A stretch of 64,000 bases of DNA from Prauserella alba. Its GTDB lineage: Bacteria; Actinomycetota; Actinomycetes; Mycobacteriales; Pseudonocardiaceae. The stretch is from the NCBI RefSeq assembly GCF_024171735.1, contig NZ_JAMTCH010000003.1:608841-672840 (forward strand), written 5' to 3'. Every line of letters starts with the position of its first letter. Positions within the stretch are counted from its first letter, which is position 1. The notes under the pieces are model-generated. The model was not told the DNA's origin. It did no database searches and was given only the letters and a program-made list of their open reading frames with translations. This document shows positions 15,224-23,619 of the stretch, piece by piece. A program made the position numbers and the translations under genes.

Positions 15224-15381
15224 GCCCCCACCGTACGCAGCGTGGGCTGGATCCGCGGAGACGATCACCGGCAGGCGAGTGCTTCTACGTCACCTCGCCA
15301 CGACACACAAGACGTGATCTTCGTTACAACATGGTCCATGATGGTGATCGACAGGTTCCTCGGGCGAGGAGGACGTGCAAG

Positions 15382-16512
15382 GTGGCAGGACCGCTGACGG
15401 TCGGTGTCGTCGCCGAGACGGCGCCGGGGGAACGACGGGTCGCACTGGTGCCGAAGCTTGCCGAGCGCCTGGCCGGCCGGGGGCTACGGGTCGTGGTCGA
15501 ACCGGGGGCGGGCAGCCGGGCGGGACTGCCCGACGAGCTGTACACAGCAGCCGGCGCGGAGCTCGGGAGCGGAGCCGAGTCCTCCGGCGGCGATGCGGGC
15601 GATCCCCGCCGCAGCGACATCGTGCTCACTGTGACGCCACCGTCCGAGGAGGACATCGCGCGGCTCGCCGCCGGTACCGTCCTCATCGGATTTCTCGACC
15701 CGCTCGCCGCCCCCGAACGGGTCCAGGCCCTGGATCGCGCCGGGATCGTCGCGCTGGCCGTCGAATCGATCCCGCGGATCTCACGCGCGCAGGCGATGGA
15801 CGCGCTGTCGTCGCAGGCGAACGTCTCCGGGTACCGTGCCGCGTTGCTGGCGGCGCAACTCTCGCCCCGGTTCTTCCCGATGCTCACGACCGCGGCAGGC
15901 ACCGTGCCGCCCGCGACGGTGCTCGTGCTCGGTGCAGGTGTCGCCGGACTGCAGGCACTCGCGACGGCGAAACGGCTCGGCGCGCAGGCGACCGGCTACG
16001 ACGTGCGCCCCGAAGTCGCCGAACAGGTGCGGTCGGTGGGTGCGCAGTGGCTGGACCTGGGTATCGAGGCGATCGGTGACGGCGGTTACGCCCGCGAACT
16101 CACCGACGACGAACGCGCCGAGCAGCAACGCAGGCTCACCGAGGCGATCGGCGGCTTCGACGTCGTGATCACCACGGCACTGGTCCCCGGACGCACGGCC
16201 CCCACCCTCGTCACCGCGGGCGCCGTGCGGGGGATGCGCCCCGGCAGCGTCATCGTCGACCTGGCAGGGGCGACCGGCGGCAACTGCGAGCTGACCGAAC
16301 CCGGCGAGGACGTCGACGTCGGCGGCGTGACGATCAGCTCGCCGCTCAACCTGCCCGCCGGGATGCCCCTGCACGCCAGCGAGCTGTACGCGCGGAACCT
16401 CGTCGAACTGATCGAACTGCTCGTGGACTCCGAAGGCCGGTTCGCGATCGACCCGGCCGACGAGATCGTCGCCGGCGCCTGTGTCGCCGGCAGGCCGGAG
16501 GAGGTGGCGTAG
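15382..16512 (+). CDS. pntAa: NAD(P) transhydrogenase alpha subunit, soluble NAD-binding part
   Basis: 376-residue NAD(H)-binding domain I of proton-translocating transhydrogenase, homologous to alanine dehydrogenase. The N-terminal GVVAETAPGERRVALVP block, the AMDALSSQANVSGYRAAL signature, the VLGAGVAGLQALATAKRLGA dinucleotide fold and TTALVPGRTAP are visible. The enzyme transfers hydride from NADH to NADP+ using the proton gradient. GTG 15382 is preferred because GAGGAGG precedes it; the frame is open upstream to 15331. Its stop shares a base with the pntAb start, giving a three-gene operon as in many actinobacteria. Confidence 0.94.
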   Translation: MAGPLTVGVVAETAPGERRVALVPKLAERLAGRGLRVVVEPGAGSRAGLPDELYTAAGAELGSGAESSGGDAGDPRRSDIVLTVTPPSEEDIARLAAGTVLIGFLDPLAAPERVQALDRAGIVALAVESIPRISRAQAMDALSSQANVSGYRAALLAAQLSPRFFPMLTTAAGTVPPATVLVLGAGVAGLQALATAKRLGAQATGYDVRPEVAEQVRSVGAQWLDLGIEAIGDGGYARELTDDERAEQQRRLTEAIGGFDVVITTALVPGRTAPTLVTAGAVRGMRPGSVIVDLAGATGGNCELTEPGEDVDVGGVTISSPLNLPAGMPLHASELYARNLVELIELLVDSEGRFAIDPADEIVAGACVAGRPEEVA

Positions 16513-16874
16513 TGCCGATCGAAAGCATCGCGATCCTGGTACTGGCCGGATTCGTGGGCTACACCGTGATCTCCAAGGTGCCCAACACGCTGCACACCCC
16601 GCTGATGTCGGGGACGAACGCCATCCACGGCATCGTGCTGCTCGGCGGGCTCATCGTGCTCGGCCACGGGGTCGACGGGGTGCTGAACAAGATCCTGCTC
16701 GTCGTGGCCATCGCGTTCGGGATGATCAACGTGGTCGGCGGGTTCCTCGTCACCGACCGCATGCTCGGCATGTTCAAACAGCGCCCCGGCGGACAGCGCC
16801 CCGGCGGACAGCGCCCCGACGGACAGCGCGCCGGCGGGCAGCGGCCCGGCGCGCGTGAGGAGGGCGAGCAGTGA
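16512..16874 (+). CDS. pntAb: NAD(P) transhydrogenase alpha subunit, membrane part
   Basis: 120 residues. Three membrane helices (about 3-20, 34-54, 56-80) include the family's KVPNTLHTPLMSGTNAIHGI sequence. This is the separate transmembrane section of the alpha subunit. It ends in a cytosolic tail made of five near-copies of a QRPGG pentapeptide (about residues 90-113), which is not part of the usual subunit. The GTG start overlaps the pntAa stop and the end overlaps pntB by four bases. Confidence 0.92.
   Translation: MPIESIAILVLAGFVGYTVISKVPNTLHTPLMSGTNAIHGIVLLGGLIVLGHGVDGVLNKILLVVAIAFGMINVVGGFLVTDRMLGMFKQRPGGQRPGGQRPDGQRAGGQRPGAREEGEQ
16779..16850 (+). repeat. 15-bp tandem repeat in the 3' end of pntAb
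   Basis: Unit CAGCGCCCCGGCGGA is repeated at 16779, 16794, 16809, 16824 and partly at 16839. The first two are identical and the rest have one to three changes. It keeps frame and encodes the QRPGG-type tail. Confidence 0.85.
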
Positions 16875-18262
16875 ACACGCTCGTCTCCGTGCTCTACATC
16901 GTTGCGTTCGTCCTGTTCATCTACGGGCTGATGGGGATGACGGGGCCGCGCACTGCGGTACGGGGCAACTGGATCGCCGCGGCCGGTATGGCGGTCGCGG
17001 TCGTCGCGACGCTGCTGCTGCCGGGCATGGGCAACTGGCCGCTCATCGCGCTCGGGCTCGGCATCGGCGCGGTGATCGGTGTTCCCGCGGCCCGTCGGGT
17101 GAAGATGACGGCGATGCCGCAGATGGTGGCGCTGTTCAACGGCGTCGGCGGTGGCGCGGTGGCACTCATCGCCTGGGTGGAGTTCCGGGTGACCACCGGT
17201 TACGAGGCCGAACCGCGGTACGTGGCGATCGCCTCGCTGTTCGCGGCGATCGTCGGTTCCGTCTCGTTCTGGGGGTCCGGGATCGCGTTCGGCAAACTGC
17301 AGGAGATTCTGCCGGGAAGGCCGGTGACGCTCGGACGATTGCAGCAACCGCTGAACATCGTGGTGCTGACGGCCGCCGTCGTGTGCGCCGTGATCATCGC
17401 CTCGGGCGGGCGATCCGAATTGCTGATCATCGGCGTGCTGGTCGCCGCGGGCCTGATCGGTGTCATGGTGGTGCTGCCGATCGGCGGCGCCGACATGCCC
17501 GTGGTGATCTCGCTGCTCAACGCGTTCACCGGACTGTCCGCCGCGGCGATGGGCCTCGCGCTGGACAACACGGCACTCATCGTCGCAGGCATGATCGTCG
17601 GCGCGTCCGGGTCGATCCTGACGAACCTCATGGCGCAGGCGATGAACCGGTCCATTCCGGCCATCCTCGCGGGCGGTTTCGGCGGAGGTGGCGACGCGGG
17701 CGCGGCCACCGTGAGCGGTGCCGGGGACCGTCCCGTGCGCAGCACCAGCACGGCCGACGCGGCGATCCAGCTCGCCTACGCCGGCCGCGTCATGGTCGTG
17801 CCCGGCTACGGGCTGGCTGTCGCCCAGGCGCAGCACGCCGTACGCGAGATGGCCGATCTGCTGGAGGCGAAGGGCATCGACGTCGCCTACGCGGTACACC
17901 CCGTCGCCGGGCGCATGCCGGGCCACATGAACGTGCTGCTGGCCGAGGCAGACGTGCCGTACGAGGCGCTCAAGGAGATGGACGAGAGCAACTCCGCGTT
18001 CCCGCAGGTGGACGTCTCGCTGGTGATCGGCGCGAACGACGTGACGAACCCGGCCGCCCAGTCCGACCCGAGCTCACCGATCTACGGCATGCCGATCCTG
18101 CACGTCACGTCGAGCCGGTCGGTGATCGTGTTGAAACGCTCGATGGGTTCCGGGTTCGCCGGCATCGACAACGCCCTGTTCACCGATGCGAAGACGGCCA
18201 TGCTGTTCGGCGACGCCAAGGAATCCGTCGCCGGCATCGTCGAGGAGCTGAAAACGTTGTGA
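16871..18262 (+). CDS. pntB: NAD(P) transhydrogenase beta subunit
   Basis: 463 residues. About eight to nine membrane helices fill the first 265 residues (proton channel half) and an NADP(H)-binding domain III follows. The latter shows VMVVPGYGLAVAQAQHAV, the HPVAGRMPGHMNVLLAEADV block and VIGANDVTNPAAQ, all characteristic of PntB. It closes the pntAa-pntAb-pntB operon; the next gene is convergent. No missing key motif is apparent. Confidence 0.95.
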   Translation: MNTLVSVLYIVAFVLFIYGLMGMTGPRTAVRGNWIAAAGMAVAVVATLLLPGMGNWPLIALGLGIGAVIGVPAARRVKMTAMPQMVALFNGVGGGAVALIAWVEFRVTTGYEAEPRYVAIASLFAAIVGSVSFWGSGIAFGKLQEILPGRPVTLGRLQQPLNIVVLTAAVVCAVIIASGGRSELLIIGVLVAAGLIGVMVVLPIGGADMPVVISLLNAFTGLSAAAMGLALDNTALIVAGMIVGASGSILTNLMAQAMNRSIPAILAGGFGGGGDAGAATVSGAGDRPVRSTSTADAAIQLAYAGRVMVVPGYGLAVAQAQHAVREMADLLEAKGIDVAYAVHPVAGRMPGHMNVLLAEADVPYEALKEMDESNSAFPQVDVSLVIGANDVTNPAAQSDPSSPIYGMPILHVTSSRSVIVLKRSMGSGFAGIDNALFTDAKTAMLFGDAKESVAGIVEELKTL

Positions 18263-18369: not shown

Positions 18370-19362
18370 TCAGCGAGCGGCCGAGAACGTGACCTGAGGG
18401 ACGGGCGGCTTGCCGCGCTTCTTCCCGGCGGCCTGCGGTTCCGTGGCGGGCTGTGCCTGCGCGGCCTGCCGGCCCGCCTTTCCGGTGGTTCCCGGCGCCG
18501 GGGCCGCGGTGGCCGCGCTCTTCGTGCTCGTGCCCTTCTTGGCGGCGGCTTTCCCGGCCTTCCCTGCGGCCTTCGTCGAGGCCGACGACGTCCCGGTGGT
18601 CTTCGGCGCGGCCTTCTTCGTGCCGGTTCCCGTGGCGGCCTTCGTGGCGGTGGTGCTCGCGGCGGCCGTTGTTGCCACCGTCGCCGTTGCGGTCGTCTTC
18701 TTCGTCGACGCCTTTCGTGGCGCGGCCTTCCGTGTTGCGGCCTTTGGCGGCGCCGGCTTCTCTGCCGCCGTCTTCGTGGCGGTCGTGCGCTGCCCTCCGG
18801 TGGAGGTCTCGGACGTGGGGTTCTTCGCCGCGGTCTTCTTTCCCGTGTTTTTCTTTTCTGCGTTCTTCTTCCCCGAGGTCTTCGTCGCCGCTGCCTGCTT
18901 CGTGGCGGTGTTCTTGCCCGCGGTCGTCGTAGCCGCTGCCTTCTTCACCGTCGCCGTCTTCGGCTCCGCCTTCTCGGAAGCTGCCTTCTCGGAAGCTGCC
19001 TTCTTGGTCGCCGTCTTCTTCGGCGCCGCCTTCTCGGGTGCTGACCTCTTGGTCGCTGCCGTCTTCGGCTCCGCCCTCTTCGTGGCGGCCTTCTTCGCCG
19101 TGGGTTTCGTGGCCGTGGGTTTCGTGGCCGACGTCGTGGTCGTGCCGGAGGAGCCGGAGGTGATCATCCGCCGGGGGCGCTTGCGACCGCCGGTGCGGCG
19201 GCCGTTGCCTGCGTAGCGAGTGAGGGTGCTGCGCAGCACGTCGGCGCCCGCCGTGGCCAGGTCGATCTCGTAGTGAACGCCATCGAGGGCGAACCGCACC
19301 GTTTCGTGGGCGGGTTCGCCACTGATGTCGTCGAGCACCTCGACCGCCGTGTTCCGTGCCAC
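18370..19362 (-). CDS. Hybrid nucleoid protein: Lsr2-like N-terminal domain fused to a histone-H1-like Lys/Ala tail
   Basis: 330 residues from GTG 19362, which has GGAGG eight bases upstream. Residues 1-65 match the Lsr2 dimerisation domain: VEVLDDISG, ETVRFALDGVHYEIDL and GRRTGGRKRPRR line up with the Lsr2 pattern. The expected Lsr2 C-terminal DNA-binding domain (RGR minor-groove hook) is absent. Instead about 250 residues of Lys/Ala/Thr/Pro repeats (KKAAPKK, EKAASEKA, TKKTTAT types) follow, like eukaryotic H1, chlamydial Hc1 or the tail of mycobacterial HupB, ending in a short PQVTFSAAR segment. A chromosome-binding role is inferred. The tail is low in secondary structure and its repeats are degenerate. 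Confidence 0.8.
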   Translation of the reverse strand: MARNTAVEVLDDISGEPAHETVRFALDGVHYEIDLATAGADVLRSTLTRYAGNGRRTGGRKRPRRMITSGSSGTTTTSATKPTATKPTAKKAATKRAEPKTAATKRSAPEKAAPKKTATKKAASEKAASEKAEPKTATVKKAAATTTAGKNTATKQAAATKTSGKKNAEKKNTGKKTAAKNPTSETSTGGQRTTATKTAAEKPAPPKAATRKAAPRKASTKKTTATATVATTAAASTTATKAATGTGTKKAAPKTTGTSSASTKAAGKAGKAAAKKGTSTKSAATAAPAPGTTGKAGRQAAQAQPATEPQAAGKKRGKPPVPQVTFSAAR

Positions 19363-19495
19363 CAACGTCCTCCGCGTTTTCCTGTGTGTGGGGGCATTCC
19401 CGCGGTCCTCCGGGCGCTCGGCCCGTGTTGTCCGCTCCTGGGCGAGGGTAGTTGCCGGGTTGCGGGGGAGTGCGCGGTGGTGTGCGCTCGACGGT

Positions 19496-20899
19496 ATGGC
19501 ACAACACGCGTACGACGTCGTCGTCATCGGAGCCGGTCCGGTCGGGGAGAACGCGGCCGCACGTGCCGTGGCCGGCGGTCTGACCGTGGCCCTCGTCGAC
19601 CACGAACGGTTCGGCGGGGAATGCTCCTACTGGGCGTGCATTCCCAGTAAGGCATTGCTGCGGCCGGGAAATCTGCTTGCGGCCGTGCGGCGCATGCCGG
19701 GGGTCGACCATGTCGGCGGGCTCGACCCGGCCGCGGTGTTCGCGCGCCGCGACGCGTTCACTCACGAAGGGGACGACAGTGCCCAGGTCGAGTGGGTTCG
19801 CAGCGCGGGTATCGAACCGGTGCGCGGGCACGCGCGGATCACCGGGGAGCGGGAGGTCACGGTCGACGGTGACGTGTTCCGCGCGCGACAAGCCGTGATC
19901 GTGTGTACCGGCAGTGTGGCGCGGATGCCGTCGGTGGCGGGGCTCGCGGAGCTGTCGGGCAAGTTGGTGTGGACGTCGCGCGATGCCACGGCCGCGTCGA
20001 CCGTGCCGGGACGGCTGGCCGTGCTGGGCGGTGGCGTCGTCGGTACGGAACTGGCGCAGGCGTGGGCGCACCTGGGTGCCGAGGTGCACCTGCTGATGAC
20101 CGGACCGCGGCCGCTGCCCGCCTATCCGGAGTTCGCAGGAGACGCGGTCGCAGAGGGGCTCCGCGGCGGCGGTGTCCGGTTGTATCCGGACACCGCCGCC
20201 GAGCACGTGTCCGAAGTGGATGAATCAGGGGCGAGTGCGGTGCGGATCGCGCACGCCGGCGGCGTCGTCGATGCCGACCGGCTGCTGATCGCCACCGGCC
20301 GCAGGCCCGCGACGGCGGAGCTCGGGCTCGACGCCGTGGGGCTCGAACCCGGCGATCCGTTGCGGGTCGACGACAACGGTGTCGTGTCCGGAACCGATGG
20401 CTGGCTCTTCGCCGCAGGGGACGTGACCGGCCGCGCTCCGTTGACGCACCAGGGCAAGTACGCGGCACGGATCGTCGGCGACGTCGTCGTCGCGGCGGCC
20501 CGCGGTGACACCGTGTACCGGTCGCCGTGGAGCGCCCACACGACGACCGCCGACCATCACGCGGTGCCGCAGGTGGTGTTCACCGACCCCGAGGTGGCGT
20601 CGGTCGGGATGCGAGAGGCCGCCGGGCCGGGCCAGCGGGCCGTGGAACTGGACATCGCCGTCGCCGGATCGGCGCTCCACGCCGACGGCTACACCGGACG
20701 GCTGCGCGCGATCGTCGACACCCGGCGGGACGTGCTGCTCGGCATGACGTTCGTCGGCCCGGACACCGGTGAGCTGTTGCACGCCGCCACGATCGCCATC
20801 GTGGGCGAGGTGCCGCTGCACCGGTTGTGGCACGCCGTTCCCGCGTTCCCGACCATCAGCGAGGTCTGGCTCCGGTTGCTGGAGGAGTACGGCCTGTGA
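19496..20899 (+). CDS. FAD-dependent pyridine nucleotide-disulfide oxidoreductase
   Basis: 467 residues of the lipoamide dehydrogenase/mercuric reductase/glutathione reductase family. FAD loop GAGPVGENAA (12-21), redox-active CSYWACIPSK with the Cys-x4-Cys pair, NAD(P) loop GGGVVGTELAQ, the FAAGDVTG FAD site, and a dimerisation domain ending in WHAVPAFPTISE, where the base histidine is expected. It is unlike true lipoamide dehydrogenase at the disulfide (GGTCLNVGC type) and lacks any dehydrogenase-complex neighbour; the real lpdA is at 60925-62298. Related actinobacterial enzymes (LpdA/Rv3303c type) reduce quinones. It is divergent from the Lsr2-like gene. Confidence 0.85.
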   Translation: MAQHAYDVVVIGAGPVGENAAARAVAGGLTVALVDHERFGGECSYWACIPSKALLRPGNLLAAVRRMPGVDHVGGLDPAAVFARRDAFTHEGDDSAQVEWVRSAGIEPVRGHARITGEREVTVDGDVFRARQAVIVCTGSVARMPSVAGLAELSGKLVWTSRDATAASTVPGRLAVLGGGVVGTELAQAWAHLGAEVHLLMTGPRPLPAYPEFAGDAVAEGLRGGGVRLYPDTAAEHVSEVDESGASAVRIAHAGGVVDADRLLIATGRRPATAELGLDAVGLEPGDPLRVDDNGVVSGTDGWLFAAGDVTGRAPLTHQGKYAARIVGDVVVAAARGDTVYRSPWSAHTTTADHHAVPQVVFTDPEVASVGMREAAGPGQRAVELDIAVAGSALHADGYTGRLRAIVDTRRDVLLGMTFVGPDTGELLHAATIAIVGEVPLHRLWHAVPAFPTISEVWLRLLEEYGL

Positions 20900-23127: not shown

Positions 23128-23619
23128 GTGAGCACACGTGGCGTTGTGTACGTCCACTCGTCGCCGTCTGCGGTGTGTCCGCACGTCGAGTGGGCGATTT
23201 CAGGCACGCTGAGCACGCGTGCCGAGTTGCGCTGGACTGCGCAGCCCGCGGCACCCGGCCAGCTGCGCGCGGAATGCGAGTGGCGTGGTCCGGCGGGTAC
23301 GGCGGGCAAGCTGGCCAACGCGCTCAAGGCGTGGCCGATGGTCCGGTTCGAAATCACCGAGGAACCCAGTGCGGGGGTCGACGGTCAGCGCTTCTGTCAC
23401 GTGCCCGGTCTGGGCCTGTGGCATGCCCGCACCAGCGCGAACGGCGACATCGTGGTGCCCGAGGACCAGCTGCGCAGCCTGGTCGCCAAGAGCCGTGCCT
23501 CCGAACAGCTCGCACACAAGATCGACGAGCTGCTCGGGGCCGGTTGGGACGAGGCGCTCGAACCGTTCCGGCACGCCGGGGACGGCGCACCGGTGACGTG
23601 GTTGCACCAGGTCGGCTGA
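23128..23619 (+). CDS. DUF3145-family protein
   Basis: 163-residue cytosolic protein of a family restricted to actinobacteria and of constant length (about 160-170). The start GVVYVHSSPSAVCPHVEWA, the GTAGKLANALKAWPMVRFE block and the terminal APVTWLHQVG are characteristic. No enzymatic motif is known. The GTG start has GGAGG seven bases upstream. Regulation is not visible; it stands alone between a divergent gene and an unrelated secreted protein. Confidence 0.85.
   Translation: MSTRGVVYVHSSPSAVCPHVEWAISGTLSTRAELRWTAQPAAPGQLRAECEWRGPAGTAGKLANALKAWPMVRFEITEEPSAGVDGQRFCHVPGLGLWHARTSANGDIVVPEDQLRSLVAKSRASEQLAHKIDELLGAGWDEALEPFRHAGDGAPVTWLHQVG

Follow-up and report, generated by a model that had tools for sequence, protein, structure and literature searches.

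Lsr2 is conserved across actinobacteria, where it binds AT-rich DNA and represses, for example, specialised-metabolite clusters, as reported in the available part of PMC6584129. The stretch of Prauserella alba DNA analyzed here (64,000 nucleotides; the window) contains a gene in which the dimerisation domain of Lsr2 is followed by a long basic tail, which raises the question of what such a fusion protein does. A conserved paralogue that has no AT-reading domain and should still dimerise would be a built-in modulator of Lsr2 silencing, and the fusion protein may alter both the packing and the silencing of DNA by Lsr2. Its single chain joins an Lsr2 N-domain and an HU-like basic tail, modules that are reported to interact in M. 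tuberculosis, where they belong to separate proteins.

Domain content of the fusion gene

The gene and its parts were delimited as follows.

18370..19362, minus strand: Lsr2-N/basic-tail/tip protein of 330 aa, GTG start, TGA stop (from orthologues)
19189..19362, minus strand: Lsr2 dimerisation domain, residues 1-58 (from PF11774, PDB 4e1p and dimer-core residues)
19165..19203, minus strand: Arg-rich hinge, residues 54-66 (from an alignment of 14 orthologues)
18409..19164, minus strand: basic low-complexity tail, residues 67-318 (from composition and imperfect tandem repeats)
18373..18408, minus strand: conserved C-terminal tip PPVPQVTFSAAR, residues 319-330 (from orthologue comparison)
19369..19373, minus strand: Shine-Dalgarno GGAGG, 6 nt 5' of the GTG, in 6/6 aligned same-genus sequences (that of the window included)
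19445..19450, minus strand: TACCCT, candidate -10-like hexamer, kept in 6/6 aligned same-genus sequences

We take the TACCCT hexamer to be a candidate -10-like motif; a sigma-70 scan found no promoter.

The earlier note on this DNA had read the N-terminus as an Lsr2 dimerisation domain, and a profile search, whose failure it had named as a refutation, confirmed this: PF11774 matched residues 2-58 with an E-value of 1.3e-18 and 66.8 bits (cut-off 29.6), or 70.8 bits when the protein was given an M start instead. The structure of the M. tuberculosis Lsr2 N-domain (4e1p) aligned with the same N-terminus at an E-value of 4.8e-10. The normal DNA-binding domain of Lsr2, which that note considered to be replaced, was indeed missing, as PF23359 did not match the window protein; the separate canonical Lsr2 that the note presumed in the host was found as a PF23359-positive gene scoring 71.7 bits. 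We also considered that the domain might be hidden in another frame and rejected this, the best tblastn match of the canonical C-terminal domain having an E-value of 0.51 in the window and 7e-26 at the canonical locus. The genome contains two Lsr2-domain genes above the cut-off and one sub-threshold match. No match of the HU domain (PF00216) to the window protein was obtained at E 1, the HU of the genome being a separate gene, and searches of Pfam, NCBIfam, PHROGs and PADLOC gave no model of the architecture as a whole. A described protein of such architecture, of which the earlier note knew none, was likewise not found in the literature searched (subscription papers and preprints lay outside it), in which no paper appeared to deal with the tip or with a long basic tail attached to an Lsr2 domain.

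The tail comprises 264 residues with a net charge of +47 (K 18, R 3, A 27, T 22, S 7, P 7 and D+E 3 %); the description of it as Lys/Ala-rich holds, with Thr to be added. Its DNA contains imperfect tandem repeats with periods of 15, 30, 45 and 60 bases. In the preceding hinge, R55, R56, G58, G59, R60 and R65 were invariant among 14 aligned orthologues. In codons 1-60, the third positions were the most variable in 15/15 pairs of the six same-genus copies, and the tip codons showed third-position variation as well. Because the architecture recurs in orthologues of nine genera and the N-domain codons vary in this manner, the ORF is more than a product of chance.

We next mapped the dimer core. 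The available text of PMC3374832 names ten well-conserved residues of the Lsr2 N-domain and an Asp28-Arg45 salt bridge of the dimer. Among these 12 positions, 10 were kept in all 29 orthologues compared: nine of the ten core residues were invariant except for Leu48 (28/29), the tenth, Trp51, was replaced by Tyr in 29/29, and the Asp28/Arg45 pair was present in 29/29. Since the core residues and the salt-bridge pair are kept, the Lsr2 fold and its pairing are very likely retained in the fusion, and the retained core also makes mixed dimers with canonical Lsr2 plausible. The fusion thus shares with M. tuberculosis Lsr2 (PDB 4e1p/4e1r; described in the accessible part of PMC3374832) the N-terminal dimerisation domain, its core residues, Asp28-Arg45 and the GRR-x-GGR following the helix, whereas it differs in having no C-terminal Lsr2_DNA-bd, in its long basic tail and tip, and in Tyr for Trp51.

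Distribution, locus and descent

A search for the same fusion in Pseudonocardiaceae, which the earlier note had suggested, recovered it in at least 33 of 150 genomes. With the N-domain profile, long-tailed proteins were top-ranked in 9 of 46 genera, and the 33 genomes represent 33 of the 35 sampled from these nine. Six of the seven genomes of the own genus encode it; named relatives are Prauserella isguenensis, salsuginis, aidingensis, halophila, rugosa and cavernicola. In the other genera of the family, no fusion was seen among 60 loci that were chosen, mainly for long frames, from the matches listed for one genome per genus. Occurrence outside the family was rejected on 394 class-wide genomes, in which all 29 frames of at least 170 aa among the matches listed from outside it carried the canonical C-terminal domain, recognized by PF23359 in 20 and by motif in 9. 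Carriage by phages or plasmids was rejected as well, because no record covered 80 % of the N-terminal query; for phages, none of 21 records covered 80 % of this 67-aa query, and the 15 matches listed stayed within 76 % cover and 54 % identity. A phage profile, the Lsr2-like phrog_6509 (70 positions), matched the N-domain at an E-value of 3.6e-12 and stops where the fusion tail starts.

Each of the 33 fusion genomes had at least one further Lsr2-domain match, confirmed as canonical Lsr2 in some. Across the 150 family genomes, the copy number of Lsr2 domains ranged from 1 to 12, the highest being that of G028. One canonical-type Lsr2 (L126, G020:C2) lies on a contig of 134495 bases that agrees in length and position with the Prauserella marina plasmid NZ_CP016354.1, so that an Lsr2 of this family is also carried by a plasmid.

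Three neighbours served as synteny markers.

16871..18262, plus strand: pntB, NAD(P) transhydrogenase beta, convergent neighbour (PF02233)
19496..20899, plus strand: pyridine nucleotide-disulphide oxidoreductase, divergent neighbour (PF07992, PF02852)
23128..23619, plus strand: DUF3145 gene (PF11343)

Across 20 fusion flanks from the nine genera, pntB was the convergent neighbour in 19, the DUF3145 gene was near in 19 and the oxidoreductase was present in 16, and the genes compared gave no sign of mobile DNA. None of the three markers was present in two canonical lsr2 flanks. Twenty of 30 genomes without a fusion match had pntB; a fusion lay within 1,500 bases of it in none of the 20 and a canonical Lsr2 in one. 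The NAD(P) transhydrogenase conserved beside the fusion is encoded by three genes (window 15331-18262, plus strand) for AlaDh/PNT domains, a 4TM piece and the beta subunit.

Within the nine genera, the fusion is absent from genomes G006 and G030, where ~130 and ~90 bases, respectively, separate pntB from the oxidoreductase. An assembly gap was rejected as the cause, as the two genes are contiguous there. Because they stand side by side and no Lsr2 match occurred in the stretch fetched around them, these are clean losses rather than gaps.

For phylogenetic comparison, we used 136 distinct Lsr2-N proteins, a non-random set gathered via the fusion profile and frame length. The tree was built from 64 columns of 135 N-domains (one of two L122 proteins was left out), and the program warned that many forks were unresolvable and the bootstrap not yet converged. 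All 29 fusions fell into one group with support of 100/97, which also included a long-branch intruder, L057, the Lsr2 of Amycolatopsis saalfeldensis, which has the DNA-binding domain. The fusions alone formed a single side of a branch in 40 % of bootstrap trees, a value below all because of the L057 row. Taken with the fixed locus, the single tree group speaks for one origin followed by vertical descent; the fusion is best read as a vertically inherited Lsr2 paralogue in part of Pseudonocardiaceae. This orthologous family at a fixed locus goes beyond the earlier note, as does the conserved C-terminal tip.

Basic tail and C-terminal tip

The likeness of the tail to histone H1, as first proposed, was overstated. 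HC2 (PF07382) scored 25.8 bits against the window protein (cut-off 40) and hist_H1_lk_Burk (NF038053) scored 26.5 (cut-off 80); at E 0.01, HC2 was touched by 4 of the 44 Lsr2-N proteins classed as having no DNA-binding domain. Orthologue tails ranged from 76 to 338 residues, with K+R at 17-26 % in 29/29. In genus g25, the tails were Arg/Pro-rich (K 2-8 %, R 12-20 %; 5/5 read) and measured 76-109 residues with net charges of +13 to +15, while the HU tails of the same genomes remained Lys/Thr-rich. Lys/Ala richness is not a conserved trait, because the g25 tail departs from it; judged by composition, basic charge is what is conserved in the tail, and the Lys/Ala idiom is not. The histone-H1 label is therefore mostly compositional, and the sub-cut-off scores do not establish H1 homology of the tail. 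Bulk coating of DNA would be less likely in g25, given the shrunken tail and its lower net charge.

The tail also resembles that of actinobacterial HU. The HU protein of the genome (L102:1495-2382, plus strand; 295 aa) has a ~200-aa Lys/Ser/Thr/Ala tail, to which the fusion tail is close in composition; the HU tails of 21 further family genomes measured 120 to 254 residues. A copying of the fusion tail from the HU tail was considered and rejected: DNA matches between the two were many but short (longest 75 bases, 71-100 % identity, best E-value 1.9e-7), a pattern that fits shared repeats and convergence alike. Fusion and HU tails were weakly correlated in their R/K balance (rho 0.47, p 0.04; 19 pairs, with G142 entered twice and relatedness not corrected).

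The tail ends in a conserved tip. A motif of the type P-x-V-x-F-S-[A/S] was present at the C-terminus of all 33 copies read (29 and four further orthologues). In its strict form, it occurred within the last 14 residues of 28/29 orthologues, and a loose form, [VI]-x-F-S-[AS], within the last 25 residues of 29/29, compared with 9 of 58,000 shuffled tails. Two to five residues follow the motif, or 13 in L097. The only Phe of the tail sits in the tip in 27/29 orthologues (L093 and L095 have a second), and Trp and Tyr are absent from all 29 tails. No such tip was seen in the last 25 residues of HU proteins (24/24 read). Apart from the tip, the tails compared have no conserved hydrophobic element. 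Roles of the tip as a degron, a clamp-binding motif or an SSB-like end were considered as well and set aside.

We also searched the DNA of the own genome and one sister with a strict tip pattern (serine as TCN only, FSA only), which gave six matches per genome, one in each being the fusion gene. A second match, found in both genomes, stood 11 codons 5' of the stop in a 50-aa frame and is presumed not to be a gene. Of the other eight matches in the two genomes, which we took for non-genes or internal sites, those at L223 and L227 stood 15-16 codons before the stop, that at L224 23 and that at L222 44, in frames of 44-134 aa, and the remaining four lay farther inside frames.

The tip extends to other Lsr2-N proteins. 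PF23359 matched 92/92 members of the set classed as having the DNA-binding domain and 2/44 classed as lacking it (L057 and the contig-end fragment L071), leaving 42. An FS[A/S/G] tip ended 39 of these 42, compared with 9/92 proteins with the domain; these are not population frequencies, because the fusion profile and frame length determined which proteins entered the set, and fusion orthologues account for 29 of the 39. The other three of the 42 are a 66-residue stub and two proteins ending in PVFQPPQR. The latter ending is common to L133 and L134 of genome G023, both of which have no DNA-binding domain. Nine Lsr2 proteins (L105, L106, L110, L118, L119, L121, L122, L147 and L156) combine the DNA-binding domain with an additional tail in which FSG, FSS or FSA stands at the terminus or close to it.

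Nine other genera have a second Lsr2-N protein, of the form MAER...VDD, encoded divergently beside canonical lsr2 (L111, L124, L125, L142, L144, L153, L155, L161 and L100). It has a Glu/Arg-rich middle and a C-terminal LPQFSSA or similar, PF23359 was absent from the one member scanned, and the class formed a separate tree group (98/75). No genus among 46 had both this class and the fusion (nine genera each, the divergent class being sought in one genome per genus), with ~2 shared genera expected by chance if relatedness is not considered. Tentatively, the tip may mark an unrecognised class of Lsr2 adaptors, in which Lsr2 would have been converted to a dimer-plus-tip protein more than once, connecting the Lsr2 system with a single shared partner, perhaps by beta-strand docking on the exposed N-terminal strand of Lsr2. 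Conversion more than once is suggested by the differing middles (basic versus Glu/Arg-rich) and the separate tree groups.

Proposed role and alternatives

We consider it probable, at roughly 0.6, that the fusion is an Lsr2 paralogue associated with the nucleoid, forming dimers, contacting DNA through its charge and offering its tip for docking to another protein. Domain content, conservation, grouping, synteny and the tip were observed; that the protein pairs with itself or with canonical Lsr2, has disordered tails, binds DNA and docks on a partner is what we infer from these features. The N-domain dimer would form units with two long basic tails each, which are probably disordered. Like histone-like tails, they would bind DNA by charge with little choice of sequence, so that the dimer, although devoid of the AT-hook-like reading seen in canonical Lsr2, might bridge DNA or coat it. 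The tip, as a short linear motif ending a flexible linker, may dock on a partner protein, and the fusion may also tune Lsr2 filaments by pairing with canonical Lsr2, with which it shares the dimer fold. The accessible part of PMC6936261 reports that in M. tuberculosis the Lsr2 N-domain binds the basic (P)AKKA tail of HU, and, citing Datta et al. 2019, that the two form thick linear filaments rather than bridges. Because of this binding, an Lsr2 N-domain and a basic tail can be regarded as modules that already work together. The tip would provide a testable handle on the partner protein, and the two relatives that lost the gene (loci L180 of G006 and L185 of G030) are natural knock-outs for comparison.

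Besides the shrunken tail of g25, two observations count against this reading. Removal of the first residues of M. tuberculosis Lsr2 triggers chain formation according to PMC3374832, as far as its text is available, and the first residues of the fusion are unlike these. In addition, the gene can be lost, as it has been in 2/35 genomes of the nine genera.

Known systems resemble the fusion in part. MSMEG_1060, an Lsr2 paralogue of M. smegmatis, is likewise a second Lsr2 with a basic tail and without Q/RGR, and its reported DNA targets are both GC- and AT-rich; it differs in that its basic tail measures 20 residues and a C-terminal domain, albeit a divergent one, is still present, and the available text mentions no tip (PMC8125055). 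HupB and actinobacterial HU have Lys/Ala/Thr-rich tails of similar composition, but the HU domain is not matched in the fusion and the FSA tip is absent from the HU tails read. H-NST and truncated CgpS share with the fusion a silencer dimer domain without a DNA-binding domain; H-NST is described on genomic islands whereas the fusion occupies a conserved chromosomal locus, and the available parts of PMC7074111 and PMC6936261 mention neither a basic tail nor a tip for them.

Another possible role is that of a natural anti-silencer, in which a hetero-dimer with canonical Lsr2 would drop one DNA-reading head and weaken xenogeneic silencing as H-NST does to H-NS, with the tail as a spacer. The kept dimer domain, the loss of the DNA-binding domain and the further Lsr2-domain match in each of the 33 fusion genomes are in line with this, and the available text of PMC7074111 reports that silencers truncated so as to retain the N-domain can act in a dominant-negative manner, and that prophage genes are derepressed when an N-terminal part of CgpS is overexpressed. 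We nevertheless regard this role as unlikely, as a mere spacer would need neither a constant K+R content nor a conserved tip, the locus was fixed in the 20 flanks with no mobile DNA sign in the genes compared, and the grouping of the fusion N-domains apart from canonical Lsr2 may mean self-preference.

It is less probable still that the protein is a plain H1/HupB-like DNA condenser in which the tail does everything and the tip is incidental. The closeness in composition to the own HU tail and the weak, sub-cut-off HC2 and H1-like matches would agree with such a function; however, the tip is kept in 33/33 fusions and absent from 24/24 HU ends, and in g25 a short, Arg/Pro-rich fusion tail coexists with a Lys/Thr-rich HU tail.

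Finally, a decaying or spurious gene, that is, a low-complexity ORF in GC-rich DNA after an Lsr2 remnant, is very improbable: GC-rich repeats open several frames and two genomes have lost the gene, but nine genera have orthologues that share the N-domain and the tip at the C-terminus, third-position variation is seen in both N-domain and tip codons, and the Shine-Dalgarno sequence is kept in the six same-genus sequences.
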